A DNA stretch of 64,000 nt, taken from the NCBI GenBank assembly GCA_019022495.1, contig JAFEKR010000027.1, positions 533,501 to 597,500 of the forward strand. The letters run 5' to 3'. The position numbers and the translations under genes were made by a program. This DNA comes from Epichloe hybrida (taxonomy: Eukaryota > Ascomycota > Sordariomycetes > Hypocreales > Clavicipitaceae). Shown piece by piece: positions 37,061-64,000 of the stretch. The first letter of the stretch is position 1; each line of letters starts with the position of its first letter. The notes beneath the pieces are model-generated. The model did no database searches and was not told where the DNA came from. It saw nothing but the letters and a program-made list of their open reading frames with translations.

Positions 37061-37068
37061 CAGAGCAT

Positions 37069-37262: not shown

Positions 37263-37459
37263 GTAATTATTTTTTATTTTTTAATATTTAGGTAAAGTAA
37301 TTAGAAATTAATAGTAAGAAATAACTTAAATAATTAGAAAAGTATATATTAGGTTTCTTAAAATATAGATTAAGGTTAAATTACTATACTAATCTTAATT
37401 ATAACCTATAAAACTAATAAAACTTACTTTTTAAGCTTATTTCTTAGAAAAATATTAAA

Positions 37460-39524: not shown

Positions 39525-39577
39525 TACACATTACATCCAAACCCCAAATATTACATTACATTACATTACATTACATG
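39525..39577. repeat. MITE-2 right terminal array (ATTAC)n
   Basis: ACATTACACATTACAT is followed, after a short C-rich gap, by five ATTAC-type units up to the terminal ATGCTCTA. Confidence 0.88.
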
Positions 39578-39582
39578 CTCTA

Positions 39583-42500
39583 ACTATAACCTAAGTTAAG
39601 TAGTATATATTAAGATAGATGCCTTAATTTTTATAATAGTAAGGATCTTATCTTAGTAGGATGATAAGGGCTATTAGTATCTAGTGGCCTTTTAGTTAAG
39701 GAAGTTTATAAATACTAAATATAACTATAGCATAGCTAATTAAGAGTTACTTACTATAGTAAAGTTATTTAAACACTAGTAATATTATATTAAAGGCATA
39801 GAGATACCTATAAAGGTCCTATTAGACTATTATAACTTATAGACCTTTATAAGGTAATAGAAGCTAAATAGAAGATAAGTATAATAGTGTATATTCCTCT
39901 GCCCTTTCTATTTTATAATTTAGTATAGACTAAGGAAAAGTAACCCTATAAATATACTATTAAGAAAGTCTAATTATAAGAGTAAACCTATATTAAATAA
40001 AGCGCTCCTACTAAAGCTTTAAAGAAAGATAGTAAATATCTTTATAGTAAAAGAAGAAGTACTAATATATTAAAGAAGTTATAGTATAATACTTATCTTA
40101 GAACTTACTAAGGTAAGAGTAGCCTAGGTAAAAGGCTAGTTAGCTACTATAGATTTAGTAATAGGTTAGCTAAATAAGAGTAATTTTAAGGAGAAGGTAA
40201 TATATATCTAAGATATTAGTATAGTATAAGTAATTTAGGGGGCTATTATATTACTAAATCCTTACTAATTTATAGTAAATAAACTATTAGTATAACTACT
40301 ATAAAAGGCATAGGACTAAAATCTAGATTTATAAAAGTATAAAGGTAAGGTTAACTCCTAAGTAAAAGGGAAGGGAAAGGCTAGTCTATAGTTATATAGT
40401 ATAAGGGGCCTTCTAATATATAAAAACTAGGTAGTTATTCTATAAGAGCCTATCTTATAATAGAAGCTTCTATAGCTATACTATAATAATTTACTAGTAG
40501 GTTACTTTAGGACTAAACACACTCTTAAGCTACTAAAACATTACTATTAGTAGCTAGTAATAAGTGAAGCTATTTTAGACTATATATCTAGCTATAGAGT
40601 ATACTAGTGTGTGGTAGCTAGGCAGTACTACCTATATAGAAGCCTTAAATTACTACTAATACTAAAGTAACTATAGGTAGAGATCTTAATAGACTTTATT
40701 ATAGGTTTACTACTAGTATAGCTAGGTAAGCGAGAAACTAATATAATCCTAGTAATTATAGACTAATTTACTAAGTATACTATCTTCCTTCCTATAAAGA
40801 CTATAATTAATATAGTAGAATTAGTAAAGTTATTTTATAAGGGGATTAAGCTATAATTTAAAGCGCTAGAGAGTATTATATCTAATAGAGGGTTAGTATT
40901 TATAAGCTAATTCTAGTCAGAGGTATGTTACTAGTTATATATAAAGCAAAGGCTTTTAATAGCATTTTACCCCTAAACTAATAAGTAAATAAAGAGAATA
41001 AATTAGGTGCTTAAATATTACTTATAATGCTTTATTAAAGAAAACTAATAGCTATAGCTAAAGCTACTCCTAATAGCTTAATTCGCGTATAATAATACTA
41101 TTAAGAGGATAATAAGTTACTTCCCTAACTATACTCTTATAGGCTATTTACCTAAGTTTTATTTAGCTCTTAAGGATAAGAGTAAGGAAGGGAAGGTCCT
41201 AGAAGCTTATATATATGTCTAGAAGCTATATAAGGTTAGGAAGAAACTAGTATATAACTAGGTAAGAGTTACTAAAGTATAGGTAAAGTACTATAATTAA
41301 TAACACTAGCTATTAACCTTAAAAAGAGGAGACTTAGTACTACTATTAGTAAAGAATATTAGACTTAAGAATGTAAAATAGAAGCTAACCCCTAGATTTA
41401 TTAGGCTGTTTTAGATACTTAATACTGTAAGTAAATAAGCGTACTAACTAGCGCTACCTAATAAGTATAGTTAACTATATAACATGTTTTATATTAGCTT
41501 ATTAAAGCTATAGAATTACTAGGAAGATGCTTTAGATAAGGATATACTAATACCTAATCTTAAAGATAATAATAATAAGTTTAAAGTTAAAGAAGTTAGG
41601 GATTATAGGAAGATATATAAAGGTAATAAATACCTAGTAAAATAGAAGGGCTAGCTAAGTAAATATAACTAATAGGTAGTAGTAGAAGACATAGAAGGCG
41701 CTTAATATGTAATTTAAGCTTTTTATTAAAGTAAAATAAGTAAGAAGTGTAGTAAGATATAAGTGATTTATAAGTAATAAGAAATAAGGTAATTATAAAA
41801 AAGGCCTAGCCTTATTAGCTACTATTATACTTTATTTAAAAACCTTATTAGACTATTGACTAAATAATAAAATAAAAGATACCTATAAGAAGGGGAGTCT
41901 TAAGGGAAACCTTTCTATAGTTACCCCCTTATATATTAAAATAATGCTATTATAAAGGAGGTACTTAGTGCTCCCTTTATCTTCCTAAACTACTACCTTT
42001 ATTACCTAGAAAAACTAATGCTTTACTACCCCCTAGGGTATAAATCCTAGATTATAATATTATAGCTATAAAGTCATTTTTGCCTTCTAGGAGTTATAAT
42101 ATGTAGTATAGTCTAGCTAGGAAAAGTTAGTAAATAGGTAGTAAAAGAGAAGTAATATATATAATTCCTAGGGCTAGAGTAGGAAATATAGTAACTAAAA
42201 GTTACTAGCGTGAAATAATATACTAATTATATATAGCTAAAGTAGCCTACTAAGAAATTAAGTAAAGACCTAGAGAATAGATAGCGAGATATACCTAATA
42301 GACCTTAGTGGCCCTAGTTAAACTAAAGGAAACATAATAAGCTATATTAGTATAATTAAACCCTATACTAAGGTTTAGATAATAAGTGCTAAAATAGTAG
42401 TAAGTTACTTTTAAAAATATATAGTCTTTAGGGTTATTAGGAACCTAATTACTTAGGGTAACTATTAAAGTTTTTACCTAATTAAGGATAGTAAGAAAAT

Positions 42501-43072
42501 CTAGGAAATCCCTTTATATAGTTAGTATTACCTAGAGAGATATAGGTAATTAAGGACTAAAAGGGTAGGGAATATAATATACTTACTATCTTATAAGTAT
42601 TACTATATTTAACACACTAGATATAATGCTTTAAATGTTTTTCTTTAATAATAGTGGTTAGCGCACTAGGGAATTAATAGTTAATCTAGGGAATGTTAGG
42701 CTTAGCTAGAGGATTTTTCTTAAAGTCCGCGTAACCTATGTATAGATAATACATATAAGAATATCCTTTTAAATAGATATTAGGGATAGCTATAATAATA
42801 ATGCTCTTAACGCTTTCCTTATCTTATTCTATTCTAATAATAAGGTAAGTGTAAAGGTAAATTTATAGTAACTAATAATTTAATAGTATTAGGGGAAAAG
42901 TTACTATATATAAGAAAGGGAAAAGTTAGTAATATAATAGGGAGTTATAAGTGAATTTATACTTAAACATAAATGTTATTTATTATTATTTTATATAGCT
43001 ACTACTTAGTAAATAGCTAGATAGTACTTACTAAAAGCTATTTAGGAGCCTAGCTAAAAGTAGGGGGGTAAT
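39583..43072 (+). pseudogene. GypA-3, 5'-truncated: RNase H, integrase, chromodomain, 3' untranslated region
   Basis: It starts mid-pol at the position equal to about 6830 of GypA-1, immediately after MITE-2. The integrase core is about 40680-41400, with an ILIDFII-like start and an SNRGLVF-like motif near 40884. A chromodomain remnant lies at about 41570-41720 (YKGN, YLVK). The 3' untranslated region ends in the purine run AAAAGTAGGGGGG just before the LTR. Stops are frequent. Confidence 0.83.
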
Positions 43073-43274
43073 TATAAGGCCTTACTTATAACACTAGCGC
43101 ACTAGCGTACTACTAGGCAGGCGTACTATGCCCTAGGGCTAGGTCTACGTAATACTAGCGAGTTACTAGCTATAAGTTAGCAACTTGCATGTATAACACA
43201 CTTAGACCTAGCAAGCTTTAGTTAATATACGAGCGCCCCTATACCTCTTGCCTAGCCATCCCTTTGTTCTTATA
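43073..43274 (+). repeat. GypA-3 3' LTR (202 bp)
   Basis: It starts TATAAGGCC and ends TTCTTATA, the same length as both LTRs of GypA-1. It is followed directly by inverted CopC internal sequence, so GypA-3 sits in CopC. Confidence 0.9.
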
Positions 43275-43823
43275 TATTTACTTTAAGATTAAATAATTCC
43301 TTATTCTCTAGTGCTTATTATATAATATACTAGTGTAAATTAAGGGAGATATAGTTAAGGAGGTAAGATATAACTTATAGATTAGCTTCTTTTCTAGTAT
43401 TCTTAGGGGGGGTTATATGTTTATAATTAAAGGGAATATCTTAGGTTCTAAATCCCTCTAGTTAATCTTAATATTTTACTATAATATTAGTAGTAAATAG
43501 GAAGGTAAGGGAAATAAAAAGATTATAGAGGTTTAAAGGATTATAAGTAAAGCTATTATCTTTACCTCTTAGTAGGTTTAATTAAATAACTAAATATAGG
43601 TTAGGTTAGTTACTAACTAGGCCTTAATTAAGTTAATAAGCTTAGATTTAGTATAGAGCTAGTTATAGTTACTTAAGGTAAAAGGAGAGCTAGAATATAC
43701 TTCTTCCTTAGCATATTAGTATTTAGAGTAACCTTTCTCTTTTATAAGGTAAGTCTATAATACTAATACCTTTTCTATAAGCCTTGCTAATCTATAGTAT
43801 TTATAAAGATAACTACTAATTAG
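43275..43823 (-). pseudogene. CopC fragment: 5' leader and start of gag
   Basis: On the minus strand, the bases after the LTR read CTAATTAGTAGTTATC and then a leader that resembles the CopA leader. This is therefore the 5' internal end of a related copia element. It has no gag motif and no open frame, and GypA-3 cuts it at 43274. Confidence 0.65.
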
Positions 43824-44118
43824 TGTTAGTATTACAGGATACTAGTAACCTATATATAGGGTTTTTAAGGTAGACTAAAGTGTATATAATTATTATATAT
43901 TCTAGTCTCTTAAAGCAAGTAAAAGAGGGATTAAATAGAAGTAAAAAGGGTATGCTATTTATTATAGGAAAAGAGGCCTTAATTAGGGTTATTAGCAAAG
44001 AGGCTATATATGCTAATTCTAATCGCGGCGCGGTTAGGCTAGACATGTGGGTCCGCGATGCAACGCGCCTATCCAATTAAAGGCGCGTTGCCTTGTTAAT
44101 ATCATGCTTGTTCCAACA
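43824..44118 (-). repeat. CopC 5' LTR (295 bp)
   Basis: On the plus strand it starts TGTTAGTATTACAGG and ends TTGTTCCAACA. The ends resemble CopA but the middle does not, so I treat it as a separate subfamily. The outer right side keeps CG-rich words (GTGGGTCCGCGATGC, AAAGGCGCGTTGCC). The small frames on both strands here are not genes. Flank CTTAG (44119-44123). Confidence 0.8.
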
Positions 44119-45232
44119 CTTAGATTAACTATTAATTCCCTAGTATACTAACTACTATTACTGTTAGTTACACTAAGGTGCCTGCGTAGGTAGGATAATC
44201 CTGTAGTATTGAAGTTGATGATAGTTAGATAGATTGATAGCTAGGAAAGAGAGAGAAGAGAGGGAAAGTCTAGATGCTAGAAAAAGGGGGCGAAATCCGT
44301 AGGTAAGGCAAAAGAGGGGGTGGCGAAGTGATGCAGCCAATCGTATTGCGTGCATCGCGCTGGACCTACAATTGGTCTAGTCTTTGGCCATGATTGAACC
44401 AATGAAGATCCGAAGGATCCGATAATTACTAAAAGGAAATATTTAAAGTATTATATCTAGTATATTAAATATAGTAATACTTATAATATAGTAAGTATAT
44501 TATTTTCTTTATATATTTAGTCCCTAATTACCTATATCTCTCTAAGTAATACTAACTATATAAGGGGATTTCCTAGATCTCCTTACTATCCTTAATTAAG
44601 TAAAAACTTTAATAAATACCCTAAGTAATTAGGTCCCTAATAATCCTAATAATTATATATTTTCTAAGGTAACTTACTACTATTTTAGTACTTACTATCT
44701 AAACCTTATTTTAGGGTTTAATTATACTAATATTACTTATTATATTTCCTTTAGTTTAACTAGGGCTACTAAGGCCTATTAGGTATATTTTATTATATAT
44801 TCTCTAGACCTTTACTTACTCCCTAGGTAAGCTACTTTTGCTATATATAATTAGTATATTATTTTATACTAGTAACTTTTAGTTACTATATTTCCTACCC
44901 TTATCCTAGGGATTATAAGTTATTACTTCTTCTTTACTACTTATTTACTAACTTTTATAGCTAAACTATACTATATATTATAATTCCTAGAAGGTAAAAA
45001 TAACTTTATAGCTATAATATTTAATCCAGGATTTATACCCTAAGGGGTAGTTAAGCACTAGTTTTTCTAGGTAATAAAGGTAGTAGTTTAGGAGAATAAA
45101 AGTAAGGGCGCTAAGTACCTCCTTTATAATAATATTATTTTAATATATATAGGGGTAACTATAGAAGGGTTTCCCTTAAGACTTCCTTTCTTATAAGTAT
45201 CTTTTCTTTTATTATTTCGTAAATAGTCTAAT
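44119..45232 (-). pseudogene. Inverted GypA 3'-region fragment, interrupted by solo LTR-Y
   Basis: Minus-strand match to the GypA 3' untranslated region (about 9070-9940 of GypA-1). It ends at the CTAAT next to the CopA LTR at 45233. Because GypA-2 is interrupted at 12018 by CopA-1 with target ATTAG, this piece is the expected continuation of GypA-2 present here as an inverted copy. It carries no protein domain. Confidence 0.75.
44162..44424 (-). mobile_element. LTR-Y: 263-bp solo LTR with exact target duplication
   Basis: The boundaries TGTTAGTTACAC and GATCCGATA are flanked by ATTAC on both sides (44157-44161 and 44425-44429), with GypA in register outside. The sequence is little RIP-mutated (GC-rich at 44280-44420). 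Its first 17 bases equal the complement of the CopB LTR end, but the rest differs. Strand assignment is a guess. Confidence 0.8.
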
Positions 45233-45528
45233 TGTTAGATTCACAGGGTGTTGAATTCAATATTACACAGTCGTAAGCCCGAAGAATAGTATTATCATTA
45301 ATTATCTATTCTAGGCTACGTTGTCTGTTTTGTTAATTAATTAAAAAGAGAAGTCAAAAGCTAGCAGCTATGGTTAAAGAAGGGAAAAGGGGTTACGCGT
45401 TTGTAGCCCTATATTTCCTAGCTAATTAATAGGCTAGGTTATGGGTTATATATAGGGTGCGCATGGCCTAAGCTTTTGCTAGGTAATTACGGCTATAATA
45501 CGTGATTAATATTACCTTTATTCTAACA
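45233..45528 (-). repeat. Inverted CopA 3' LTR (296 bp)
   Basis: On the plus strand it starts TGTTAGATTCACAGGG and ends TTATTCTAACA. It has the same length as the CopA-1 5' LTR (12018-12313). Its flank CTAAT (45228-45232) is the complement of the CopA-1 target ATTAG. I infer that it is an inverted copy of the missing CopA-1 3' LTR. Confidence 0.88.
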
Positions 45529-46007
45529 CTAGAACCTCTCTCTTTTAACATAATTATTAACGCGTGATATTAATTATAGAAATAAAAAAGAAAGGTAGAT
45601 TAAGGATTTAATTAATAGGGAATATAAGGAAAGGAACTTATAGCTTATCTAGGCGTATAGTGGTTAATAAAAGAGAAATAATAATCTTACTTAGCCTATG
45701 AGCCTATATAAGGATAAGTGAATCCCTTCTAAATCCCTTCTTTTCCCTAAAATAATATATCTCTTGTGCTATAGTGTGTATATAATATCTTCCCCCTTCT
45801 AATATAATACCTTCCTCCTCCTATACACTACTATTAATTTCTATGGTTTACTAGGAGGGCCTAGTAGGCTAGCGTGGCTATAGCCTCTAGGGATGTTAAC
45901 TATAGGGGCGTGGATTCCCTCGCGTATTACTATCTTATCCCTATGGCTACCCTCCTAGAGGATTACTTTTTCTCTTATTATACGTGTGTTACGCGTAAGT
46001 AACCTAT
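45529..46007 (-). pseudogene. Inverted CopA 3' untranslated region
   Basis: This is the stretch between RNase H and the 3' LTR of CopA, homologous to 1200-1667 and 18546-19010. It has no coding sign and is cut at 46008 by GypB-2 (target CCTAT, 46003-46007 and 55407-55411). Confidence 0.8.
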
Positions 46008-46274
46008 TGTTATGACTGTGGTAGGAGAGATATAAACGGAGTGAAGGCTAAGGTTCTTAGTTATAGCTAGAGAGCTACTACTTAGGGGTAGGTATATAAA
46101 GGTCTTAAACTCTAACCTCCTATATCCCTTATAGGTAGTCCTTATCTAAATACCCTACTATATACACATAGCTATCTAGCAGCTACTTAGTTATTTATGT
46201 AACCTAAGGCTTATCTAAGGGCTTTATTATGTAACTATCCTATCTATAGCTCCCTAGTCTCTATACTCCTAATA
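46008..46274 (-). repeat. GypB-2 3' LTR (267 bp)
   Basis: On the plus strand it starts TGTTATGACTGTGG and ends CTCCTAATA. The left, outward side is the better preserved one. Confidence 0.93.
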
Positions 46275-49200
46275 TACTACCCCCCTAATATATAATTATC
46301 CTTAATTAAAAAGAGCTGCTTAGCTAGTATGTGTATACTACGTATAACCTATAGTAATATTTATATTACTAGCTATACTATGAGTACGTAGTATTATATT
46401 TACTTTAAATAATAAGATAGATATCATAGGGTTTTAGATAATCCCTCTTATAACCTCTAGATTATAAATAGCCACACACTTACTACTTTATTACCTCTAA
46501 TATATATACCTCTATTTAATAAGTTATTAGCGTTAAGTAAGTAAACTACTTATATTAAGTTTTGTAATTAGGTTAAATAGACAGGGTAACGTATAAAATT
46601 TAAAAAAAAAATTCTTATCTAATATTAGGGATATTATATTAATCTTGCTAGGAGTTTCTAGCTAGCGTGCGTATCTACTAGTAGTAGCTATAACTATAAA
46701 TATTATAATTCCTAGATTAGCTATATATAGTACGTAGATTACTTAGGGGTCTAGGGCTAATATAAAAGAGACTTACTTTTCCTTACTTTCACACACTTTT
46801 CTTCCCTTTATATTCTCCCTTAGTATTATAAGTTACCCTTACCTATAAGCTAGTAGCTTTATAGCTTCTTTTATAGTAGTTACTAACATCCTATAGCGTT
46901 ACTTTATTATCTATATCTACCCTTATCTAAAATATTTAAATTCTCTTAAATACCTAAATATTAGTTACTTATCTTTTACCTATAAGTTTCCTATAGTATA
47001 TTACTACTAACTTACTAGTAGTTAATAATATCTTTACTATAAGAGATTACTTTACTACTACTACCTCTCTCTAGTAAGAAAAATTCCTTAATATCCCCTA
47101 TAAAGTCTTCTAGTAAGAAGTATATAGCTTTAAAAATTTTAATATAAGTATAATATCTCTACCTACCTAGCGCTTACCTTACTAACTTATAGCTAGTAAT
47201 ACTAGCAATATAAAAATTCCTTATATTTACTATATATAGTAAGTTATAATATAAGCTATTATACTTAAAGATAGTAATAGTATAAAGCTATAATATATTA
47301 TTAAGGGTAAATCTATCCTAACCTAATATACTAATTCTCTAAGTATAACTTTACTACTATCTTACTATATATTACTCCTAACTTATATAAATAACTTAAT
47401 AAAATACACTTATTATACGTATAATAATAAGGATTACACTAGGGTTTATCCTCCTTTTCTTACTACTAATATATATACTCATATACTACTAGTATCTTAC
47501 TTAGTTTACCTAGTTATATTATATACTCTTTAAGCATATTAATACTTATAGTAATCCTAATAATAATCTATACTTTCTTAATAATATATATATCTCTTAT
47601 ATCTATAACTTAGTTACTGCTAATATACTACTAGTATTTAATATATATAAAGCATAAACTTTATAATACACTCCTAACTACTAAAAATACTAATAAGCGT
47701 AAATAGGTAAGGTAAGTATAGCTTATAGCGGAAGTTATATATAAGGCTAATACTAATAAATAAGTTACTATATTACTACTTAATAATACTATTAATCTAG
47801 AAGTCTAGATTAATATTTCTAATAGCTTATGTTTTATTATATAAAACCTTTTATTTATATATACTTCCTATGCTTTAGCTTATAGCTTTACTAACTTACT
47901 AGTAGCTTACTACTAATATATTTACGCTTCCTACTTATATTAGGCTACTAGACCTCCCTAGCAAGCTTTATATATATATATATAAAGAGGGGGATTCCTC
48001 TAATAATAAGGATAAATCCTTTACCCTACTATTATTAGTAAGACTACTAAGGGCTAGGTAAGTAATGTATTAATAGAGTAATTAGTGTGAAGTAGCTATA
48101 AGTTAAGTTATCTAAGAAATTTTCTAGATTTTTAATATATATTGCTACTACTATCTAAACTCTACTAAATACACCTGTATATCCCTAAACTAGCTACTTA
48201 GTTACTACTTATAATCCTTAATAATATCTATTATAATAAAATCTCTTTTCTTTACCTAAGAATTCTTAGAAGCATTATAGCCCTTCTATTTAACTAGGTA
48301 TTTCTAATGTCTCCTATTATAGTAATATAATATAATTGTTTTAACTTTAAACTCCTACTTATTATCCCTAATATTCTCTTATAGTAAGGATATATCTTTT
48401 ACGCTAGATAGGTCCCCTATAAATAGCTTAAGATTAGTAATATTAAAAATATTATACAGATATGTTCTAAGTAGTAGCTTTAATTAATATGCTAATCTAT
48501 AGGTACTAATTACCTTTTTAACTTTATAAGGGCCTAGATACTTTATACTTAGCTTCCTACTAGGTTACTATAAGTTAATATTCTTTATAAATAATAAAAT
48601 ATAGTTACTTACTCTAAACTTTATTAGGGTTTGCTTCTTATTATAGTATTTTATATACTAGGCCTATAAGTCACTTAGAAGCTACTTAATTACTATATAT
48701 CTATCTCTTAGTATAGTAGTATAAGTCTTTACCTAGTTATTTACTATAGGAATATTTATAACCACTTACTATAGTCCCCTAGGGTTATAGCCTTATAATA
48801 CCTTAGCTAGGGTATAGCTATAAGTTAAATAGACGCTTATATTATACATAAACTATACTATTAAAAGGTTATTAGCCTAATTAGTTTAATTAAAGTAAGT
48901 AAAGGCTTTTAAATAATACTCTAAAACTTAGTTTAAACACTTTATCTAACTATCTATTTATAGGTGGAACGCAGTGCTTAGTTGCCGCTTAGTTATAATA
49001 AGATAGCAAAAGGTTATCTAAAACCTACTAGTAAAAGTTAAACTATAGTCTATAATAATACCTTCTAGAGCGTTATAATCCCTAAAAACATACTCTAGGA
49101 ATATAGTAGCTAACCTATTACTAGTTATTTGCGTTAAAACAGGGATGTAAATACCGTATTTTGTGAAATAGTCTATAATAGCTAAGATTATATTATAGGT

Positions 49201-52200
49201 CTAATTTACATCTTTCACAGGCGGTAGCCCTGTAACAAAATCTATTAATAATTCTTAAAAAGGTTAATTAAGCACTAGTAGTATAGCTAACTTACTATAA
49301 GGTTTATAATGCCTTAGCTTTAAAGTCTAGTAGCTTATGTAAGTTTGTATATATAACTTAGTGTCTTTCTTTATTATTAGCTAGTAATATTAACTTATAA
49401 TCTAATAAAGGGTCTTACTAACTCCCTAGTAGCCTGCTACTAGGTTATTATAAGTAAGTAATATAACTTTCTTTCTTATACTAATTAGAATAAAAACTCT
49501 ATTCTTAAACATTAATAGCTTAGAGGGCCTAATAGACTATATTTATAACGCTTCTAGGTTACCGCTTTTAAGTAGCTTTCTCTAACCTATAGTAAAGTTA
49601 TTATCTTACTATGCTTAAAATAATATAACTTAAATTAAAGTCTCTAATTCTATATATATAGGATAAGTATTACGTACAAACTTAGAAGAGGTTTACTAGG
49701 GTACCTATATTCTTACTATAATACCACTATAAGTAGCTAGCTTATAGTGTGCTTTTAGACTTATAGATAAATTATAGCTAAGTAGCGTTTTAAAGGGGCG
49801 CCTATGCTACTTACTAACTACTAACCTAGCTAGACTCCTAACCTACAGGCTTACTAGACTTATAGAAATATTAAATAATATAAATAAGGCATGACCTTAC
49901 TACTTATAATTAGTAGACCTAGTTAGCATACTACTTATAGGCTTTATAGGACTATTAGGTTCCTTAATAATATAATTAAGTTATATTTTCTTAAAACCCT
50001 AGAGGCTTAAATAGCCCTTATAGCGCTCTTATAATAAACTATTAACTACACTAAGTAATATAACCTTAGGGCCTATGACTATACTATTACATATATAGTG
50101 CCCTTACTACTTAGTATTTATAAACTTAGCTAAGAAGTTAGGTAGCTATAAGGATATAGCCTCTGCCTTATGCTTCTTACTAATATAATTTACTTTTCTT
50201 AATAAGGTATTAGTAGGATTTAACTTACTTATATAATATTTAATCCTAAAATTAAACAAATAGAGCTTATCTAATACTATTACTTACCTACTAGTTAGCT
50301 TTAGCTTTATAGCTAGGTACTTATAATTTAAATAGTTTATAATAACTATAATCTAATAAGTTAAATATATAAGTTAATATCTCTAGGCTTAAAATGCCTC
50401 TTAGATTGCTAATAACTTAGTATCTAGGGTTAAGTAGTAAAGTTTAATATTAGTTAACTTCCTTAAAAAATACGCTACTAGGTGCTAGCTACCTAGCACT
50501 AATATTATAAGTATAGCTTAAATTATATAACTAAATATATTTATCTTTACTCTTAGCAAATAAAGTAGGTTAAAGTGCACTAAAATTAGTACCTCCTAGA
50601 ACTTCTTTTAGAGTTCTCTAAACACTATTAGTTTACTAGGCTCTAGCTTAAACTCCACTAGTTAGATACCTTTTAGATAGTTTATTAGTAAGACTACTAC
50701 CCTACTATACTATTTTATAAAGTATTAGTAAAACCCTATAAACCTAAGGAATAATTAAATATTAAATATACTATAGGGTATTAGCTAGGTTATAATAGCT
50801 TTCACTCTTAATAGTTCTATCTTAATACCTTTTTTAGATATAATAAACCCTAGGAATTTTACTTATAATACTAAAAATTAGCACTTCTTAAGGTTAATAT
50901 AAAGATCTATATCTTAAAGTCACTCTAGTACCCTTTTAACATGCTCTATGTGTCTTATAGGGTTACTACTATATATTAGGATGTTATTAAGGTAAATAAT
51001 ATAGAATTCATTTATAAGCCCCTTAAGAGCATTATTAATATATTCCTAAAAAGTGGCTAGTATATTTACTAACCTAAATAGCATCATAAGGTACTTAAAA
51101 TGCCTATAGTAGTAACGGAATGCTATCTTTTACTTATTACCCTTATAGATATATAGCTAGTAGTATACTTCTTAAAGATCTAGTAATATAAAAACTTTTA
51201 CACCTACTAGTTAATTAAGGATTTTAGAGATTAATAGTAAGGGGGCCTTATTTTTAATAGTAATTCTATTAAGACCCCTATAATCCATATAAAGCCTTAA
51301 TTTCCCTGATTTTTTTAGGACGAATAAAATCAGGGCTTTAGCTAGGCTTGTTAATCTTCTAATCTATCCTTTTTCCTACACACTTGCTAGGTACTCCCTA
51401 AGCACCTCTAGCTCTTTTTTAGCTAGGTTATATATAAGTCCCTAGGGTAGTTATTTTCCCTCTTCTAATTTAATTACATAAGTATAGCCACCTAATTCTA
51501 GGAGCTTGCTAGCTAAATCCTTTAAAAACACGTTTATAAATTTCACGTACTCTTCTAGGATTTACTACTAGGGTGTATTACTATTTATCTCTTACGTAAA
51601 CACTGCTAACTATTAAAAATAAGACCTATTTTTAGCCCTTTTCTAGTTAAAGAACCTTCTTATTACTAGCTTGCTTTGCAAGTCTGACAGCTGCACTGCA
51701 GCTGTCAACGGTCGCGAGGGCAGCTATCAATAGCTGCGTCGCAGCTGTTAACAGCTGCGACTGACCGTGTGGATAACTAATTAGTTAATTGCGTTGTGGC
51801 TACAAGTGTGGCTACAACCACGCCACTAGTAATTAGGTAAGCTAGGGTAATGTAAGCTAGGGTGACGTAAGTAGGTTACCTTACACATAACTTACCCTAT
51901 AGCTATCTTTGATAACGATTTTCTCTTTATCTAGAGGTCGTACAAAAGTTTCATATATAGCAAATTAAAGCTTAAAGATAAGGCTTTCTTTTTATGTAAG
52001 GTTATTTTTTGGACCAAAAGTTAGTGTATACGGGTTGCTAGCTAGTATAGTGGTGAGTCAATTTTTTGGTTTTTGCATACAAATGAATTTTACGGAAAAT
52101 CAAAAGTGGCCCGTAAGACCCCGTTAGCGGCCTAAATCCACCAATATGGTTAGTAAGTCTATAAGAGAAAGAAAATCTTTTCAACTAGCTAGATAGCTAG

Positions 52201-54355
52201 TCCTCTTAACTAACAACAGCCGCATTACTCGTATAACGTATCTAAAATCAATTCTATTACTTTATAAGATATTATAAAAGTGATCTAAATTGAATTCTAT
52301 TAGTTAATAACTACCACAACCTTCCGTTACGTTACGTTGATTGATTTAACGTTATAGCCCTATTAGTCCCTGACCGTAGAGCTTGCACCCGTACAGCTGT
52401 TGCTAGCTAGCAACTAGCTCCCTACATTTCAATACTAACTCTTTGTAATACACTGCCTAGAGCGCTATTATACTTCTTAGTTTTTTCTTCCTTAATATAT
52501 AAGCATATTCTACTACTACTACTATAACTATACTATAACTTAGGTTATTACTTACTATATTATCTATTAATAAATTTTTATTAGTATCCCCTTCTTATAT
52601 CTTTAGGTTAATTACCTTAATCTTTAGTAACACTAGTAATAGCGTAATAAAAGACTACTTTACTACATTATGTAGTTATTACTTACCTATAGTAAAAGTA
52701 ATATAGTCTTAGGTTATTAGAAACCTCTAGAAGCCTTACTTCTAGTCTATTACTATAGGTTTATACTCTAGGGTCTAGTCTATTCCTAATAGCATTCCCT
52801 CTCCTATATTAGTAATATAGTAGCTAACTTAGTAAACCTTTATATAGCCTATACTATCTCTTACCTTAACTAGTTTATATATTACTTATGCTTTCTAGTG
52901 TTATCTTTACTTTCTTTATATTCTTCTAATTTTATTTTAATAATAATTTAGGGTAAATTATTAAATACTTCGCGCCTATATTAAATAGCGCTAGTATTAC
53001 TAACTAGTAGTTATCTTACTATAAGAATACTTATATCCTTATTCTCTTATCTATAGGTTTCTTTATAGTAAGACTATTATCCTAGGCCTATGCTAAACTA
53101 ATTAGAATTTTATTTAGGTTTAAAGATTTATTACTACTATCTTTATACTTATTAGTAGTATACCTATTACTCTTATAGATTAAGTAGTTTACTACTTTAT
53201 ATTTATTTATACTATATCTAGGGCTACTATATTTATAGTATTTAAATAGCTTCTAACCTATGCCTTATTACTAGGAACCTTACTATAAGTTATCTATAAG
53301 GGAGCTAAAGTATTATCTCTTATTATTCCTACTCTCTTTATTATAGCTTCTATTATAATTCTTTATTATAAATATTATTATAACTTTAGCTTTTTTACCT
53401 TAGCCCTATAGATAGCTCTAAGATATAAGGAACTCTTAGCTAACTATATACTACCTTATAGCATTATTTAAGCTATTTAGAAATATTACTATCCTTAAAT
53501 ATAAGGGGATCTAGTTAAGTAATTTAGCTTCTACCTTTATTTAAAGTCTTAGGAAAGATTAGAAAGATTAATTATACTTTTACCTAAGGTTTAGTAGTAT
53601 CCTAGTAGCTTCTAAGTACCTTATATCTTTATCTATTATACTAGTGTTTAGCTAAGATATAAATCTATCCTAGGTGTAGGATATATAGTTAACTATCCTA
53701 TTTACTATTATATAATATATCTATTATTACTTTATGTTATTAGCTAGGTAGCTACTAGTATACGCTACCTTTATCCTATTATCCTAGAAGGTTCTTAGGT
53801 CTAACTAGAATAGTATATTTAAATCTTATAAGTATACCTATAAATTCTTATAAGTATTTCCTTTATATATAAGTACCTTATATTATATTTTAATAAAGCT
53901 TTATAGGTATATACTTATTATAAACTTAGTATTAGGTAAGAAACCTAGGAATATAGGACTTATTAGTATATTTATCTAAGGGGTAATTATAGGTCTTTTA
54001 CCTAATCTAGCTAATTATAAGTCCGCTTCTATTTCTTTAAGCTATGCTTCTATTTCTAAGATCTCTTATCTTATATAAGTATTATATAGCTAGGCTTATA
54101 TAACCTTATATTACCTTTATAGCTAGTCTAGATTATTATTATTTCTAGATCTAGAGTTACTATATTAGTTAGGTAGTATTTACTATACCTTATTATATTT
54201 TATAGTTAAAGTGTTTAGGTTATTACTTAGGTACTATAGGTTTAGGGCTTTCTTACTAGGTAGTATAAGTATATTCTAAGTAAATATTCTATAGCTCCTT
54301 TATATTTAAATCTAGCTAATAGTTTATTTTTCTAAAAGGGTTTAAGAGTTTAACT
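46275..54355 (-). pseudogene. GypB-2 gag-pol remnant
   Basis: This has the same domain order as GypB-1 on the minus strand. The knuckle is at about 53190-53250 (Cys and His turned to Tyr). RT is about 50780-51430, with the catalytic YLDD box read as YLNN near 50982-50994. RNase H is about 50080-50740. The integrase is about 48460-49270, with a LIDFI-like core start. A chromodomain lies near 48200-48350 and a 3' untranslated region at 46275-48190. LTR-X interrupts the stretch just upstream of RT. Stops occur throughout. Confidence 0.85.
51611..52434 (-). mobile_element. LTR-X: 824-bp solo-LTR-like insertion
   Basis: The ends on the minus strand are TATTGAAATG and TTTTTAATA, that is TG...CA after one C-to-T or G-to-A step each. 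The exact duplication CTAAC flanks it (51606-51610 and 52435-52439), and GypB is in register outside. It is clearly richer in C and G than its host. At 51690-51775 it has a cluster of CAGCTG-centred palindromes. It has no coding frame. It could be the solo LTR of a large gypsy element; no internal sequence of that family is seen here. Confidence 0.7.
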
Positions 54356-55406
54356 TATTATAACTATAGTAAGAGAGATATAAATAAAGTAAAGGCTAAG
54401 GTTCTTAGTTATAGCTAGAGGGCTATTACTTAAGGGTAAGTATATAAAGGTCTTAAACTCTAACCTTCTATATCCCTTATAGGTAGTCCTTATCTAAATA
54501 CCTTACTATATGCACGTAGCTATCTAGTAGCTACTTAGTTATCTGTGTAACCTAAGGCTTATCCAAGGGCTCTATTGATTTTTAATTTTTTTTGGGGTCA
54601 TTAGCTGTGGCTAATGCATCTAATTTTTAAGGAACCAAAAAAATTACTAGCAATACCTAGCTAGTGCCACATATAATAACTAAATTTAATAATCACTATA
54701 GTGTTAGGTAAAACATAAAAGAAATAAGCTTTAAGCTACAAATTTAGGGGCTGAAAAGTTAATATAAAGTTTATAACAAACTTTGTAGCTATAATTGCGT
54801 AAGATATAGTTATAATTCGCGACCGTAGTCAAACTCAAATCTATTTAAGTTTTACTTATAGTATAAATTAATGTAATTCCCCCTTCCTCTGCGACTATAT
54901 TTATTCTATCTCTCTATATCTTTTCTATCTTATAACTTGTCCTTTAAAGCTCTAAGGCAAACTTAAACCCTAAAAAAACACAACTTATCCTCACTTAACT
55001 CCACTCTAATTCGAAACTAACAAACGCACTGCACAATTCATAGGTAGGTTAAGGGCTACTTATTAACTAATTAATAACTAACTAATTAGAAAAATAGTAT
55101 AGCTAAGGGTAACCACAAGCCAGGGGCTATAACCACTAGGCTACAGAACCTAATAGCTATCCAAAAATCTGAGGAAATTCCAGATAAAAAGGAAATTTAA
55201 AAAACCGAAGAAAATATTAAGGAATTTAGGAAAAGTGAGAAGAAGAAGGGAAATAAAAAGCTAGAGAAGAAGGCTAGATATTTGGAAAAGGTGTTGAAAA
55301 ATAGAGATCTATAATTTAAGCAGTTTTACCTCGTGCCCGGGAGGGTCCAAGGGCTCTATTATATAACTATCCTGTCTATAGCTCCCTAGCCTCCGTGCTC
55401 CTGACA
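54356..55406 (-). repeat. GypB-2 5' LTR, interrupted by the 769-bp retroposon
   Basis: On the plus strand it starts TATTATAACTATAG and ends GTGCTCCTGACA, the best preserved end of this LTR family. Without the insert it is exactly 267 bp. Confidence 0.93.
54577..55345 (-). mobile_element. 769-bp poly(A)-tailed retroposon with 15-bp target duplication
   Basis: The 15-bp duplication TCCAAGGGCTCTATT (54562-54576 and 55346-55360) and the tail AAAAAAAATTAAAAATC on the minus strand are signs of target-primed insertion by LINE machinery. On the minus strand, TAGCCTAGTGG (55133-55143) fits the polymerase III A box, in a tRNA-like context. The B box is weak (GTTTCGAATT near 55010). It could be a long SINE or a 5'-truncated LINE. 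Read in the other direction, about 55150-55345 gives a lysine- and glutamate-rich stretch of coiled-coil type, of unknown meaning. Confidence 0.75.
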
Positions 55407-56295
55407 CCTATCCCTCTATCTAGATAGTTATTTAGTTAGTTAAGATAAAGCTCTTAAGGGCCTTATTAAGTAATACCTTTATAAAGGTATTAGCTAGGTT
55501 ATCCTCCCTATTAATCTATTAAATCTTATAGAGCTCTTAGTGCTTGTATGATTATTAAAGAGCTATGATATTAATTATTAGGTGTTTCTCTTTTATTATT
55601 CTAAGCTTAATAAGGCATTTATATAAGGAGTATGAATTTATACATGCAATAACTAGGATTTTCAGGAGCTTTAGTTAGTTAGTAACTAGGTTTAGGGTTA
55701 TTATAATTATATAAGCTATATTAACGCTAGCTACTATGCTATAAACCTCTGAGGTAAGTATACTTTATATGACTCTTTTGCTCTTTATTAAGCTAAAGTA
55801 TATAATATTACCTTTAATTATGAATTTACTATTAGTATAGTCTTTATTAGCTAGGATAAGTATATATCCTAGTTATAAGGATAGGTCCTAGTTATTAGTA
55901 AATAATCTATTTATAAAGGCAAAGAGCTTTACCTTCTTAAGGTCTATTAGGATAAATATTAGGCCTCTTTCTAGGTAATCTATCTGCCACTTTAAATAAT
56001 AGTTAAGGGCTTTTATATCCTCTAGGGTTAGCTCTTAGTGCTATATAGTAATAGATAAATTAAAGTAAGCCTCTAGTTAGCAGATTAAGGTGATGTAAGC
56101 GCCTTAGGCCCTCTGCTTAATATATTTATGCTTTGAATTAATTATTAGAACTAATTCTAACTTATTACTCTATCCCTTTTACTATATCTTAATAGTATTA
56201 TTCTCTAGTGTAATAATGCCTTTATTAAACATAAGGGGACTATCCTAGGTTAGGAATTGCTTTAGCTTTATATTAAAGCATATAGTAACTAGTTA
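55407..56295 (-). pseudogene. Inverted CopA RNase H and RT-end fragment
   Basis: This continues the inverted CopA beyond GypB-2. RNase H lies at about 55437-55960 on the minus strand. It is the exact mirror of 58173-59061 and stops abruptly at 56295, where CopB 3' sequence begins. That junction is the inner breakpoint of the inverted repeat. Confidence 0.88.
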
Positions 56296-56443
56296 GTGTA
56301 TTATTAACTAATAGGGAGTCCGAATTTAACATCGGACCTACTTATCCTTACATAGGCTTATTTTATTTATATACCTACTAATTCACTCTTTTAGTATTAA
56401 ATCCATCTTACCTTACTTTCTTCCTAAAAAGAGAAGTTGCTAG
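56296..56443 (+). other. CopB 3' untranslated end with polypurine tract
   Basis: 148 bp lie directly upstream of the CopB 3' LTR. They end in AAAAAGAGAAGTTG, a likely polypurine tract, 3-4 bases before the LTR. RNase H should precede it but was replaced by 37061-56295. Confidence 0.7.
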
Positions 56444-56674
56444 TGTTATAATAACTAGGTTAACATTGGATTAACCACTAGGAAAGTGGAGTATATGCGG
56501 TAACGCCGCACTGTGATTGGCCGCGCCCGTACGCGAGGCACACACGTGACTTGTGTTCCCTTTTTCTTATAGCTACACAATACTATAGATAGCTTTAATC
56601 CTTAGACCTTATTATATCATTAAACCTGACCCTACGTTGCACTAGTGCATACCAATCCCTTGGTGTAACCAACA
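56444..56674 (+). repeat. CopB 3' LTR (231 bp)
   Basis: It starts TGTTATAATAACTAGG and ends GTGTAACCAACA, with target copy AGAAC at 56675-56679. The right, outward end is better preserved than in the 5' LTR, the left end worse. Confidence 0.92.
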
Positions 56675-59061
56675 AGAACCATTACCTTATAAATCTAGCT
56701 AATAACTTATATAACTTATTCCTTATATAGTATAAGGGAGAATAAAAGCCCTAATCCCCTATTAATAATAAGATTGCTTAGTATATAAAGAGTATTGGAT
56801 TTAATAACAGCCCTAATAATATAGATAGGCTAGTACTTACGAGCTTCTTTAATTATAGAATATAACTTAAGAGCAAAAGAATAGTTTAATTCCTAATAAG
56901 TTAAGTAGCTTATTATAGTCTAAGTAAAGAAAACCCCTTCTAGCAAGAACTCTTAAGTAAAGCTCTAGTAATATTTACACTAGAAGATTACTATTCTTAT
57001 ATAATATTCTAAGGGATTATGCCTAATACAGGAGCTATAAAGTTCTCTATAGTAAGGCACCCTTAATTCCTTACTTTATAATACTAAATACCTAAGCTAC
57101 TGCTTAATAAATTAAAAGCAAAGAAAGCATTAATTAGATTTAGTATAGGAGAACTAATTATTACGCTTAGAGTAGCTAACATGCCTACCCCCTTTAGAGA
57201 TATTCTCTTTTAGGTTATACTAACAAACAAACTAAAGAGAGCTATATGCTTAATATACCTAGAGGCCTAAAGACTTTTAGGTTAACCTCTATTAAACCCT
57301 ACTATAATAATCCTAGTATAAAGAAAGTAGTGAAGCCTAGTAGAGAGGAAAAGAAAGAAAGGTAAGAGGCCTAAGATAAGAATATAGTGCTAGTAATACC
57401 ACTAAAGCATAGGCATAGAAGGCCCTAAAAGAACCCTCCTATAATACCTTAAGAGACTAATACCTTCCTATTAATAAAAGAGCATAATAACTTAGCCCTT
57501 ATAATTAAGCTACGTAAGGAAGGAATTATTAAGACCCTAGGTAAACCCTTTAAATAATTAATAAAGGCAGAGATTAATACCTTGATTAAGTAAGGTATAT
57601 TTAAATTCATTATATTTAACAAGGAGAAGTATAGTGAAAATTAAATCTTTAATTCCTAAATTATTAATAAGATTAAAGGCAAGATAACAGAACCTTACGA
57701 AAAATCACACCTTATGATCTAAGGATATAAGAATAAAGGGAAATAGGCTATCCTTACACAAGCCCTAATAATTTAACAAGCGAGCTAATGCCTTATCCTT
57801 ACGATAGCCCTATTAGCAAGATTAAGGAAATTCCTTATCTAGCTATATAATATCTATTAGGTGTATGTATAGGCCTATACATTACTAGAGCGGCTAATCC
57901 TAGCACGCTTGCTAATTTAGATATAGCACCTTTACTTGCCTAGCATGATTTTTAGGGTTATAAAGCCCCTCTATAGGCTTGCGGAGGCCGGAATGTATTA
58001 GTAGGTTACGTATCACAAGCATTATAGAGAGAACCTCTAGATAGAAACCTTTACGTATAATCCTTACTTATTTATAACTATAAAGGAAAGCCCTAATATT
58101 ACATATATTAGAATATAAACTAATAATACCCTTAGCCTATTAGATAAGAAGTTCTCCAAGAAGGAAGAGACTTAACTAGTTACTATATGCTTTAATATAA
58201 AGCTAAAGCAATTCCTAACCTAGGATAGTCCCCTTATGTTTAATAAAGGCATTATTACACTAGAGAATAATACTATTAAGATATAGTAAAAGGGATAGAG
58301 TAATAAGTTAGAATTAGTTCTAATAATTAATTCAAAGCATAAATATATTAAGCAGAGGGCCTAAGGCGCTTACATCACCTTAATCTGCTAACTAGAGGCT
58401 TACTTTAATTTATCTATTACTATATAGCACTAAGAGCTAACCCTAGAGGATATAAAAGCCCTTAACTATTATTTAAAGTGGCAGATAGATTACCTAGAAA
58501 GAGGCCTAATATTTATCCTAATAGACCTTAAGAAGGTAAAGCTCTTTGCCTTTATAAATAGATTATTTACTAATAACTAGGACCTATCCTTATAACTAGG
58601 ATATATACTTATCCTAGCTAATAAAGACTATACTAATAGTAAATTCATAATTAAAGGTAATATTATATACTTTAGCTTAATAAAGAGCAAAAGAGTCATA
58701 TAAAGTATACTTACCTCAGAGGTTTATAGCATAGTAGCTAGCGTTAATATAGCTTATATAATTATAATAACCCTAAACCTAGTTACTAACTAACTAAAGC
58801 TCCTGAAAATCCTAGTTATTGCATGTATAAATTCATACTCCTTATATAAATGCCTTATTAAGCTTAGAATAATAAAAGAGAAACACCTAATAATTAATAT
58901 CATAGCTCTTTAATAATCATACAAGCACTAAGAGCTCTATAAGATTTAATAGATTAATAGGGAGGATAACCTAGCTAATACCTTTATAAAGGTATTACTT
59001 AATAAGGCCCTTAAGAGCTTTATCTTAACTAACTAAATAACTATCTAGATAGAGGGATAGG
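56675..59061 (+). pseudogene. CopA-1 right half: gag end, RT, RNase H; integrase core deleted
   Basis: It continues CopA-1 in register from 14889. Alignment with CopA-2 is colinear to about 57230, then jumps from the equivalent of about 21900 to about 20860, so roughly 1 kb holding the integrase core is missing. RT follows at about 57700-58150, with catalytic QTDD read as a TNN box near 58118. RNase H is at about 58500-59030. The element is cut at 59062 by the mirror copy of GypB-2 inside CCTAT. Even before RIP this copy could not integrate by itself. Confidence 0.83.
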
Positions 59062-59122
59062 TGTCAGGAGCACGGAGGCTAGGGAGCTATAGACAGGATA
59101 GTTATATAATAGAGCCCTTGGA

Positions 59123-59891
59123 CCCTCCCGGGCACGAGGTAAAACTGCTTAAATTATAGATCTCTATTTTTCAACACCTTTTCCAAATATCTAGCCTTCT
59201 TCTCTAGCTTTTTATTTCCCTTCTTCTTCTCACTTTTCCTAAATTCCTTAATATTTTCTTCGGTTTTTTAAATTTCCTTTTTATCTGGAATTTCCTCAGA
59301 TTTTTGGATAGCTATTAGGTTCTGTAGCCTAGTGGTTATAGCCCCTGGCTTGTGGTTACCCTTAGCTATACTATTTTTCTAATTAGTTAGTTATTAATTA
59401 GTTAATAAGTAGCCCTTAACCTACCTATGAATTGTGCAGTGCGTTTGTTAGTTTCGAATTAGAGTGGAGTTAAGTGAGGATAAGTTGTGTTTTTTTAGGG
59501 TTTAAGTTTGCCTTAGAGCTTTAAAGGACAAGTTATAAGATAGAAAAGATATAGAGAGATAGAATAAATATAGTCGCAGAGGAAGGGGGAATTACATTAA
59601 TTTATACTATAAGTAAAACTTAAATAGATTTGAGTTTGACTACGGTCGCGAATTATAACTATATCTTACGCAATTATAGCTACAAAGTTTGTTATAAACT
59701 TTATATTAACTTTTCAGCCCCTAAATTTGTAGCTTAAAGCTTATTTCTTTTATGTTTTACCTAACACTATAGTGATTATTAAATTTAGTTATTATATGTG
59801 GCACTAGCTAGGTATTGCTAGTAATTTTTTTGGTTCCTTAAAAATTAGATGCATTAGCCACAGCTAATGACCCCAAAAAAAATTAAAAATC
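59123..59891 (+). mobile_element. Mirror copy of the 769-bp retroposon
   Basis: It starts CCCTCCCGGGCACGAGG, has the A box TAGCCTAGTGG at 59325-59335, and ends in the A-rich tail AAAAAAAATTAAAAATC. The 15-bp duplicates appear as AATAGAGCCCTTGGA on both sides. Confidence 0.75.
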
Positions 59892-62033
59892 AATAGAGCC
59901 CTTGGATAAGCCTTAGGTTACACAGATAACTAAGTAGCTACTAGATAGCTACGTGCATATAGTAAGGTATTTAGATAAGGACTACCTATAAGGGATATAG
60001 AAGGTTAGAGTTTAAGACCTTTATATACTTACCCTTAAGTAATAGCCCTCTAGCTATAACTAAGAACCTTAGCCTTTACTTTATTTATATCTCTCTTACT
60101 ATAGTTATAATAAGTTAAACTCTTAAACCCTTTTAGAAAAATAAACTATTAGCTAGATTTAAATATAAAGGAGCTATAGAATATTTACTTAGAATATACT
60201 TATACTACCTAGTAAGAAAGCCCTAAACCTATAGTACCTAAGTAATAACCTAAACACTTTAACTATAAAATATAATAAGGTATAGTAAATACTACCTAAC
60301 TAATATAGTAACTCTAGATCTAGAAATAATAATAATCTAGACTAGCTATAAAGGTAATATAAGGTTATATAAGCCTAGCTATATAATACTTATATAAGAT
60401 AAGAGATCTTAGAAATAGAAGCATAGCTTAAAGAAATAGAAGCGGACTTATAATTAGCTAGATTAGGTAAAAGACCTATAATTACCCCTTAGATAAATAT
60501 ACTAATAAGTCCTATATTCCTAGGTTTCTTACCTAATACTAAGTTTATAATAAGTATATACCTATAAAGCTTTATTAAAATATAATATAAGGTACTTATA
60601 TATAAAGGAAATACTTATAAGAATTTATAGGTATACTTATAAGATTTAAATATACTATTCTAGTTAGACCTAAGAACCTTCTAGGATAATAGGATAAAGG
60701 TAGCGTATACTAGTAGCTACCTAGCTAATAACATAAAGTAATAATAGATATATTATATAATAGTAAATAGGATAGTTAACTATATATCCTACACCTAGGA
60801 TAGATTTATATCTTAGCTAAACACTAGTATAATAGATAAAGATATAAGGTACTTAGAAGCTACTAGGATACTACTAAACCTTAGGTAAAAGTATAATTAA
60901 TCTTTCTAATCTTTCCTAAGACTTTAAATAAAGGTAGAAGCTAAATTACTTAACTAGATCCCCTTATATTTAAGGATAGTAATATTTCTAAATAGCTTAA
61001 ATAATGCTATAAGGTAGTATATAGTTAGCTAAGAGTTCCTTATATCTTAGAGCTATCTATAGGGCTAAGGTAAAAAAGCTAAAGTTATAATAATATTTAT
61101 AATAAAGAATTATAATAGAAGCTATAATAAAGAGAGTAGGAATAATAAGAGATAATACTTTAGCTCCCTTATAGATAACTTATAGTAAGGTTCCTAGTAA
61201 TAAGGCATAGGTTAGAAGCTATTTAAATACTATAAATATAGTAGCCCTAGATATAGTATAAATAAATATAAAGTAGTAAACTACTTAATCTATAAGAGTA
61301 ATAGGTATACTACTAATAAGTATAAAGATAGTAGTAATAAATCTTTAAACCTAAATAAAATTCTAATTAGTTTAGCATAGGCCTAGGATAATAGTCTTAC
61401 TATAAAGAAACCTATAGATAAGAGAATAAGGATATAAGTATTCTTATAGTAAGATAACTACTAGTTAGTAATACTAGCGCTATTTAATATAGGCGCGAAG
61501 TATTTAATAATTTACCCTAAATTATTATTAAAATAAAATTAGAAGAATATAAAGAAAGTAAAGATAACACTAGAAAGCATAAGTAATATATAAACTAGTT
61601 AAGGTAAGAGATAGTATAGGCTATATAAAGGTTTACTAAGTTAGCTACTATATTACTAATATAGGAGAGGGAATGCTATTAGGAATAGACTAGACCCTAG
61701 AGTATAAACCTATAGTAATAGACTAGAAGTAAGGCTTCTAGAGGTTTCTAATAACCTAAGACTATATTACTTTTACTATAGGTAAGTAATAACTACATAA
61801 TGTAGTAAAGTAGTCTTTTATTACGCTATTACTAGTGTTACTAAAGATTAAGGTAATTAACCTAAAGATATAAGAAGGGGATACTAATAAAAATTTATTA
61901 ATAGATAATATAGTAAGTAATAACCTAAGTTATAGTATAGTTATAGTAGTAGTAGTAGAATATGCTTATATATTAAGGAAGAAAAAACTAAGAAGTATAA
62001 TAGCGCTCTAGGCAGTGTATTACAAAGAGTTAG

Positions 62034-62857
62034 TATTGAAATGTAGGGAGCTAGTTGCTAGCTAGCAACAGCTGTACGGGTGCAAGCTCTACGGTCAGGG
62101 ACTAATAGGGCTATAACGTTAAATCAATCAACGTAACGTAACGGAAGGTTGTGGTAGTTATTAACTAATAGAATTCAATTTAGATCACTTTTATAATATC
62201 TTATAAAGTAATAGAATTGATTTTAGATACGTTATACGAGTAATGCGGCTGTTGTTAGTTAAGAGGACTAGCTATCTAGCTAGTTGAAAAGATTTTCTTT
62301 CTCTTATAGACTTACTAACCATATTGGTGGATTTAGGCCGCTAACGGGGTCTTACGGGCCACTTTTGATTTTCCGTAAAATTCATTTGTATGCAAAAACC
62401 AAAAAATTGACTCACCACTATACTAGCTAGCAACCCGTATACACTAACTTTTGGTCCAAAAAATAACCTTACATAAAAAGAAAGCCTTATCTTTAAGCTT
62501 TAATTTGCTATATATGAAACTTTTGTACGACCTCTAGATAAAGAGAAAATCGTTATCAAAGATAGCTATAGGGTAAGTTATGTGTAAGGTAACCTACTTA
62601 CGTCACCCTAGCTTACATTACCCTAGCTTACCTAATTACTAGTGGCGTGGTTGTAGCCACACTTGTAGCCACAACGCAATTAACTAATTAGTTATCCACA
62701 CGGTCAGTCGCAGCTGTTAACAGCTGCGACGCAGCTATTGATAGCTGCCCTCGCGACCGTTGACAGCTGCAGTGCAGCTGTCAGACTTGCAAAGCAAGCT
62801 AGTAATAAGAAGGTTCTTTAACTAGAAAAGGGCTAAAAATAGGTCTTATTTTTAATA
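62034..62857 (+). mobile_element. Mirror copy of LTR-X (824 bp)
   Basis: Flanked by GTTAG on both sides, the complement of CTAAC. It starts TATTGAAATG and ends TTTTTAATA, with the CAGCTG cluster at about 62693-62778. Confidence 0.7.
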
Positions 62858-64000
62858 GTTAGCAGTGTTTACGTAAGAGATAAATAGTAATACACCCTAG
62901 TAGTAAATCCTAGAAGAGTACGTGAAATTTATAAACGTGTTTTTAAAGGATTTAGCTAGCAAGCTCCTAGAATTAGGTGGCTATACTTATGTAATTAAAT
63001 TAGAAGAGGGAAAATAACTACCCTAGGGACTTATATATAACCTAGCTAAAAAAGAGCTAGAGGTGCTTAGGGAGTACCTAGCAAGTGTGTAGGAAAAAGG
63101 ATAGATTAGAAGATTAACAAGCCTAGCTAAAGCCCTGATTTTATTCGTCCTAAAAAAATCAGGGAAATTAAGGCTTTATATGGATTATAGGGGTCTTAAT
63201 AGAATTACTATTAAAAATAAGGCCCCCTTACTATTAATCTCTAAAATCCTTAATTAACTAGTAGGTGTAAAAGTTTTTATATTACTAGATCTTTAAGAAG
63301 TATACTACTAGCTATATATCTATAAGGGTAATAAGTAAAAGATAGCATTCCGTTACTACTATAGGCATTTTAAGTACCTTATGATGCTATTTAGGTTAGT
63401 AAATATACTAGCCACTTTTTAGGAATATATTAATAATGCTCTTAAGGGGCTTATAAATGAATTCTATATTATTTACCTTAATAACATCCTAATATATAGT
63501 AGTAACCCTATAAGACACATAGAGCATGTTAAAAGGGTACTAGAGTGACTTTAAGATATAGATCTTTATATTAACCTTAAGAAGTGCTAATTTTTAGTAT
63601 TATAAGTAAAATTCCTAGGGTTTATTATATCTAAAAAAGGTATTAAGATAGAACTATTAAGAGTGAAAGCTATTATAACCTAGCTAATACCCTATAGTAT
63701 ATTTAATATTTAATTATTCCTTAGGTTTATAGGGTTTTACTAATACTTTATAAAATAGTATAGTAGGGTAGTAGTCTTACTAATAAACTATCTAAAAGGT
63801 ATCTAACTAGTGGAGTTTAAGCTAGAGCCTAGTAAACTAATAGTGTTTAGAGAACTCTAAAAGAAGTTCTAGGAGGTACTAATTTTAGTGCACTTTAACC
63901 TACTTTATTTGCTAAGAGTAAAGATAAATATATTTAGTTATATAATTTAAGCTATACTTATAATATTAGTGCTAGGTAGCTAGCACCTAGTAGCGTATTT

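Follow-up and report, generated by a model that had tools for sequence, protein, structure and literature searches.

A perfect 19.1-kb inverted duplication in RIP-marked DNA of Epichloe hybrida, probably left by transposon-primed repair

How two long mirror-image arms can be identical in DNA that carries the marks of RIP is the question raised by this locus of Epichloe hybrida. The window, the whole stretch of 64,000 nucleotides that was analysed, corresponds to C77:533501-597500 in an assembly of 80 Mb and 156 contigs; coordinates above 64000 extend the window numbering along the contig, which was read for a further 30 kb. For a biotin synthase piece encoded on this contig, the best named relatives included Metarhizium majus (93%) and Claviceps, which probably points to a hypocrealean host. 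The original prediction had described 5.8-kb arms at 50468-56295 and 58173-64000 with neither indel nor mismatch. By direct comparison, the two stretches were exact reverse complements (5828/5828 bases). The exactness stood and the size did not: identity continued for 13,279 bp further outward, to 37189 and 77279, and the window end had hidden most of arms that measure 19,107 bp each, with zero mismatches and zero gaps (Table 1). When small gaps were allowed (BLAST), 37122-56295 aligned to 58173-77343 at 99.98% over 19,174 columns. Between the flanks outside the termini of the transposon T described below (37061 and 77357), homology at mirror positions was absent.

Table 1. Coordinates of the features discussed, in window numbering unless a contig is named
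Feature	Position	Strand	Remarks
CopB, part left of the inserted arm	36400-37060	+	Copia-like, 3' part of pol (class assigned by eye)
TGTATAGT, last 8 bp of the left CopB part	37053-37060	+	Abuts the T terminus
Left T	37061-39582	+	2522 bp; read as chimeric, with the outer end in CopB and the inner side from the right locus
Left arm, read as the copy	37189-56295	+	Exact reverse complement of 58173-77279, which ends past the window
Tandem array of ~101-bp units within T	37406-38709	+	Same in both arms
ACTATAAC, target duplication of the right locus within the left arm	39583-39590	+	Start of the Gypsy-like half
Gypsy-like half, read as copied from the right locus	39583-43272	+	91% match to window 6822-10523
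Spacer separating the arms	56296-58172		1877 bp
GTG at the non-homologous inner junction	56296-56298	+	Filler of 1-3 nt
CopB resumes, probably its 3' LTR	56299-56675	+	566-591 bp further along than 37060
Right arm, read as the source	58173-64000 within the window, on to 77279 (C77:610779)	-	Inner edge continuous in 39/39 other scored copies
Right T	74886-77357		Flanked on both sides by ACTATAAC, inside the Gypsy-like element
Inverted pair on C113, T inside	2440000-2459150 and mirror near 2592600-2611700

The identity of the arms is neither due to chance nor typical of repeats in this genome. Three 2-kb searches gave 717, 604 and 811 candidates, of which 40 each were scored; the best other copies of at least 1.9 kb among these were 93%, 95% and 95% identical (the place itself and the arms excluded), and the closest copies of the ordinary repeats of the window were 93-97% identical among the scored candidates. 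The composition of the window fits heavy past RIP: G+C was 0.28 and the ratio (CpA+TpG)/(ApC+GpT) was 0.36, and three 10-kb stretches with long open frames on the same contig gave ratios of 1.29-1.31. In the copied part outside T, none of the 490 CpA+TpG sites differed between the arms, and because of this RIP has apparently not acted on them since the duplication. One RIP cycle at 1% per site would leave both arms unchanged with a probability of 5e-5, if RIP is assumed to target the pair. Only two stop-free stretches of at least 90 aa were present in the whole window. Pfam gave no family for seven of nine short pieces and, for the remaining two, a single weak match each that fell under the cut-off; the names Gypsy-like and Copia-like come from motifs picked out by eye and from the labels of the original prediction.

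On its outer side, each arm was found to begin in the terminal part of T, a young, non-autonomous and hAT-like transposon of 2.5 kb with terminal inverted repeats CAGAGCAT / ATGCTCTG and 8-bp target duplications; short terminal inverted repeats and 8-bp target duplications are features of hAT elements. The CAGAGCAT end was present in all 30 T loci fetched, among which two pairs had identical flanks and some others were flanked by related repeats (73-93%). All six T copies with both ends fetched had CAGAGCAT at one end and ATGCTCTG at the opposite end. Equal 8-bp flanks were found in 6/6 other copies with both ends read (four distinct sites), and likewise at the right T. The right T and its left copy end in ATGCTCTA (window 39568-39582), versus ATGCTCTG in the six others checked. 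The right T on C77 and the T at C102:2033171 / C154:31330 share their 8-bp target as well as the 12 bp upstream (TAATACTATAAC), and from these sites it seems that T returns to similar positions in related retroelements. A second hAT-like element of ~9.0 kb was seen at window 16398-25420, with ends CAGAGCATTG / CAATGCTCTG, TATTG-type minisatellites and GTCATAGC on both flanks.

A search with the 296 bp of T just internal to the terminal minisatellite returned 181 candidates. Among the 40 that were scored, 33 were at least 99% identical over 283-296 bp (two of them the arms themselves; the 99-100% classes were taken from rounded percentages), and the other seven were 96-98% identical. Among the fetched loci with fewer than 20 ungapped mismatches, 16 sites varied in 296 bp, three of them in CpA/TpG context, which suggests that the T family likewise bears little sign of RIP. 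The hAT dimerisation domain PF05699 had 127 matches in the genome. In pairs chosen by eye among the matches listed, four of these were 10.9-11.5 kb away from the 3' end of a T, with one relative orientation common to all four, and a fifth was 4.3 kb away; by position only, such loci may be candidates for the autonomous partner of T.

The right locus has the appearance of an undisturbed template. Its T interrupts a Gypsy-like element in the normal way, between two copies of ACTATAAC. Aligned to an uninterrupted copy (window 3927-10523), the two halves of that element overlap by 9 bp, which is what an 8-bp target duplication predicts. Its inner edge was unbroken in all 39 other scored copies (93-96% identity; 403 candidates). 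Since the right inner edge is continuous, the right T has matched flanks and the left edge breaks homology, the right arm is read as the source and the left arm as the copy. The original prediction, in which the right arm was ancestral, is borne out by this continuity and by the matched 8-bp duplication.

The left arm lies in CopB, and 13 uninterrupted CopB copies were available for comparison, one of which matched the right part over 153 bp only. The left CopB part aligned to all 13 without gaps at 88-93% (one copy in two pieces), and 566-591 bp lie between the two CopB parts in 13/13, collinear; this stretch is missing at 37060/56299. By this comparison, CopB lost ~0.6 kb at the insertion site. 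In the uninterrupted copies the T site departs from TGTATAGT at 1-3 bases, by C/T or G/A in every case. A search across the left inner edge gave 404 candidates; the 38 others that were scored matched one side only and stopped within a few bases: matches from the arm side covered query bases 1-98 at most and those from the CopB side began at base 95 at the earliest, with the junction at 96/97. Beyond the inner edge, the arm source reads AGTCTC and the CopB copies read TTG, TTA or TTT; judged by these readings, the GTG filler is not clearly part of either side. On the inner side of the insertion, where CopB resumes, neither a second T end nor a second copy of TGTATAGT was found. TGTAT, a 5-bp likeness noticed by eye, is common to the T target and the inner junction, and given this likeness a later small deletion at the inner junction is possible. 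That downstream DNA was copied in inverted orientation into CopB, as had been proposed, is supported by the 13/13 CopB copies that are collinear across the interruption and with both junctions.

The left T differs from the right T in its surroundings and near its end. Its flanks are unequal, with TGTATAGT outside (CopB) and ACTATAAC plus the Gypsy-like half inside. The first 76 bp from the terminus are identical in the two; the left T is then longer by a net 50 bp, after which 19,107 bp are identical. Near its end the left T carries two copies of a 46-bp minisatellite unit, and two exact 46-bp units were found in this one of the 30 T loci. The switch from old to copied sequence is placed by the alignment within the first ~130 bp of T. 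Because the left minisatellite differs from that of the right T, the comparison suggests that the CopB T was a separate, independent insertion before the break discussed below; slippage during repair or other copying routes could also yield the extra 46-bp unit.

We regard it as probable (about two in three) that the mirror is the scar of one recent T-primed repair event. The junctions, the source, the loss and the identity are read in the sequence, and from them we infer a break, its cause, a strand invasion and a same-chromatid template as follows. T would already have been inserted in CopB, inverted and ~19 kb from the T of the Gypsy-like element. The CopB T, or the DNA next to it, would have suffered a double-strand break, perhaps through excision by hAT transposase; a short T end would have been left, which would have invaded the other T within the terminal minisatellite. 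About 19 kb would then have been synthesised towards the centre by synthesis-dependent strand annealing (SDSA) or break-induced replication (BIR), and the new end would have been joined by end joining to a trimmed CopB end, with ~0.6 kb lost. Perhaps the broken chromatid itself, through its other half, served as the template, and this would account for copying that ended 1.9 kb short of the break. Several features are those expected of homology-primed repair: T is present at both places, one junction lies in shared homology and the template locus is intact; the second junction is non-homologous and accompanied by target loss, as such repair requires. The terminal nucleotide of T is the exact outer boundary at CopB, and inside it follow the right T, its ACTATAAC and 16.7 kb of flank. 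A more general form, in which a hAT-type break is healed from the inverted sister element of the same chromatid up to the resected end, and T clusters in a RIP-silent fungus thus repeatedly seed large perfect palindromes, is put forward tentatively, as a possibility with the odds against it.

Perfect duplications are not unique to this locus. Contig C113 carries two T loci in inverted orientation, 140 kb apart, with 1411/1411 bp of flank shared. Ten mirror-position probe pairs were applied to it: identity was 100% at 2440000, 2444000, 2448000, 2457500 and 2459000, 98% at 2436000 and 93% at 2461000, and the probes at 2433000, 2476000 and 2496000 had no match. Contigs C102 and C154 have 1416/1416 bp of flank in common, and 4/4 probes of C154 against C102 (2.00-2.06 Mb) were 100% identical in the aligned part (the full 201 bp in two of them, 149 and 174 bp in the others); C154 is possibly redundant. 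Other small contigs look redundant or recently duplicated, with equal scores (C122 vs C1:3744511, and C127, C147, C73:546352). The overhanging ends of the compared stretches aside, the C113 and C102/C154 pairs differed only in T, mostly in the tandem array, so that the array in these pairs either changes faster than the flanks or was misassembled. In the window arms the array is identical as well, and for this reason the window event may be the youngest of the three duplications. On the same contig as the window, C77:619031-619919 (extended window 85531-86419) is a 445-bp exact head-to-tail duplication in AT-rich DNA with no RIP difference.

Other origins of the mirror were weighed against T-primed repair. 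In alternative hAT transposition, which corresponds to the reversed-ends scheme of maize Ac/Ds, transposase would have joined CopB to the outer terminus of the right T or a sister copy, the DNA behind that terminus would have been re-replicated, and the aborted end would have been fused to CopB. An outer boundary exactly at the T terminus beside an 8-bp target candidate speaks for this route, as does a duplicated flank that ends at a junction without homology, and ~19 kb falls within the 10,191 to 23,647 bp of maize composite insertions (PMC4270019). In the cases described there, however, the inserted ends carry 8-bp target duplications. Here the duplicated flank does end at an end-joining junction, but two T ends and an 8-bp target duplication were not found together: across the insertion there is no second transposon end and no second TGTATAGT, and the T end differs between the arms (net 50 bp). 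We consider this origin rather unlikely. Macrotransposition of a T end with its flank was rejected on the same missing second end and target duplication. The whole arm was also considered as a giant mobile element of the Starship type, and this was rejected on the continuity of the right inner edge in 39/39 other scored copies and on T ending after 2.5 kb. In microhomology-mediated template switching, a replication fork would have left CopB at T-like repeats and later returned, with no earlier T insertion and no break at T. One junction in short repeats, another with a filler of 1-3 nt and the inverted orientation would suit it, and MMBIR is described with inverted duplications mixed with deletions (PMC2621351), but the switch must land on the terminal base of T, with a plausible 8-bp target next to it. 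Transposition accounts for such a position and chance does not; this origin appears very unlikely.

An error of assembly, by which the assembler or chimeric reads would have put a second copy of the arm into CopB, could explain arms that are perfect across 19.1 kb, and small redundant-looking contigs such as C154 do exist in this assembly. The fold-back form of it raised in the original prediction is disfavoured by the unique spacer of 1877 bp, which is unlike a folded-back read. A misjoin in general is also unlikely on the sequence evidence, as the CopB parts are correctly ordered and oriented around a defined loss, an assembler would meet no misleading homology at the inner junction, and the flanks of T obey the logic of transposition and recombination. 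An old inverted repeat held equal by gene conversion would gain from the C113 pair, whose core of 100% identity gives way directly to 93% outside, a drop that a conversion tract could show. Of the two junctions of the left arm, however, one is of the insertion type and the other is non-homologous, and homology at mirror positions does not continue past the T termini. A non-homologous junction and unequal T target duplications are unlike conversion of an old repeat, which is not needed here and is highly improbable. Among the three alternatives offered by the original prediction (recent duplication, gene conversion, assembly), a duplication after the last RIP cycle gives the best fit, understood as after the last effective RIP. 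A literature search for papers joining several of these subjects (RIP, Neurospora, inverted duplication, palindrome, gene conversion) found none, which does not show that none exists.

Large duplications left untouched in RIP-marked DNA suggest that RIP has not worked effectively in this lineage since the duplications appeared, whether sex was lacking or RIP itself had been lost. Linked inverted repeats that are perfect are also unstable, and those found here could seed further rearrangement. If the duplication is real, the locus is a clean natural record of one transposon-primed copying, in which the source, the start, the end and the lost target can be read near base level without later mutations. 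The elements of the account are known already (hAT elements, ectopic repair, flank loss, inverted duplication). The use of the locus lies in how legibly RIP-marked DNA records a single fresh event here, and in the evidence that RIP seems to have stayed silent at this place from then on.

T resembles non-autonomous transposons of the hAT superfamily in its 8-bp target duplications and its short terminal inverted repeat CAGAGCAT, and hAT transposase domains occur in the same genome. It differs from them in that about half of it is a 101-bp tandem array, in having no long open frame and in the ACATT-type minisatellites at its ends. The maize composite insertions (PMC4270019) are comparable in their hAT-type outer end, in flank size and in a repair junction with little or no homology, whereas the present locus has a single transposon end, an insert without target duplication, a target loss of ~0.6 kb and a T minisatellite that is unequal between the copies. 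There is also a likeness in kind to ectopic SDSA/BIR repair of transposon-linked breaks, as in rice (PMC4423477), where flanking DNA is deleted along with transposon excision, by up to 2,479 bp, and fillers measure 1 to 123 bp. Both share a broken transposon site (presumed here), loss of flank, copying of foreign DNA and end joining; in contrast to the repair described in rice, the present locus apparently received ~19 kb, inverted and copied from a linked member of its own transposon family, in RIP-marked fungal DNA.
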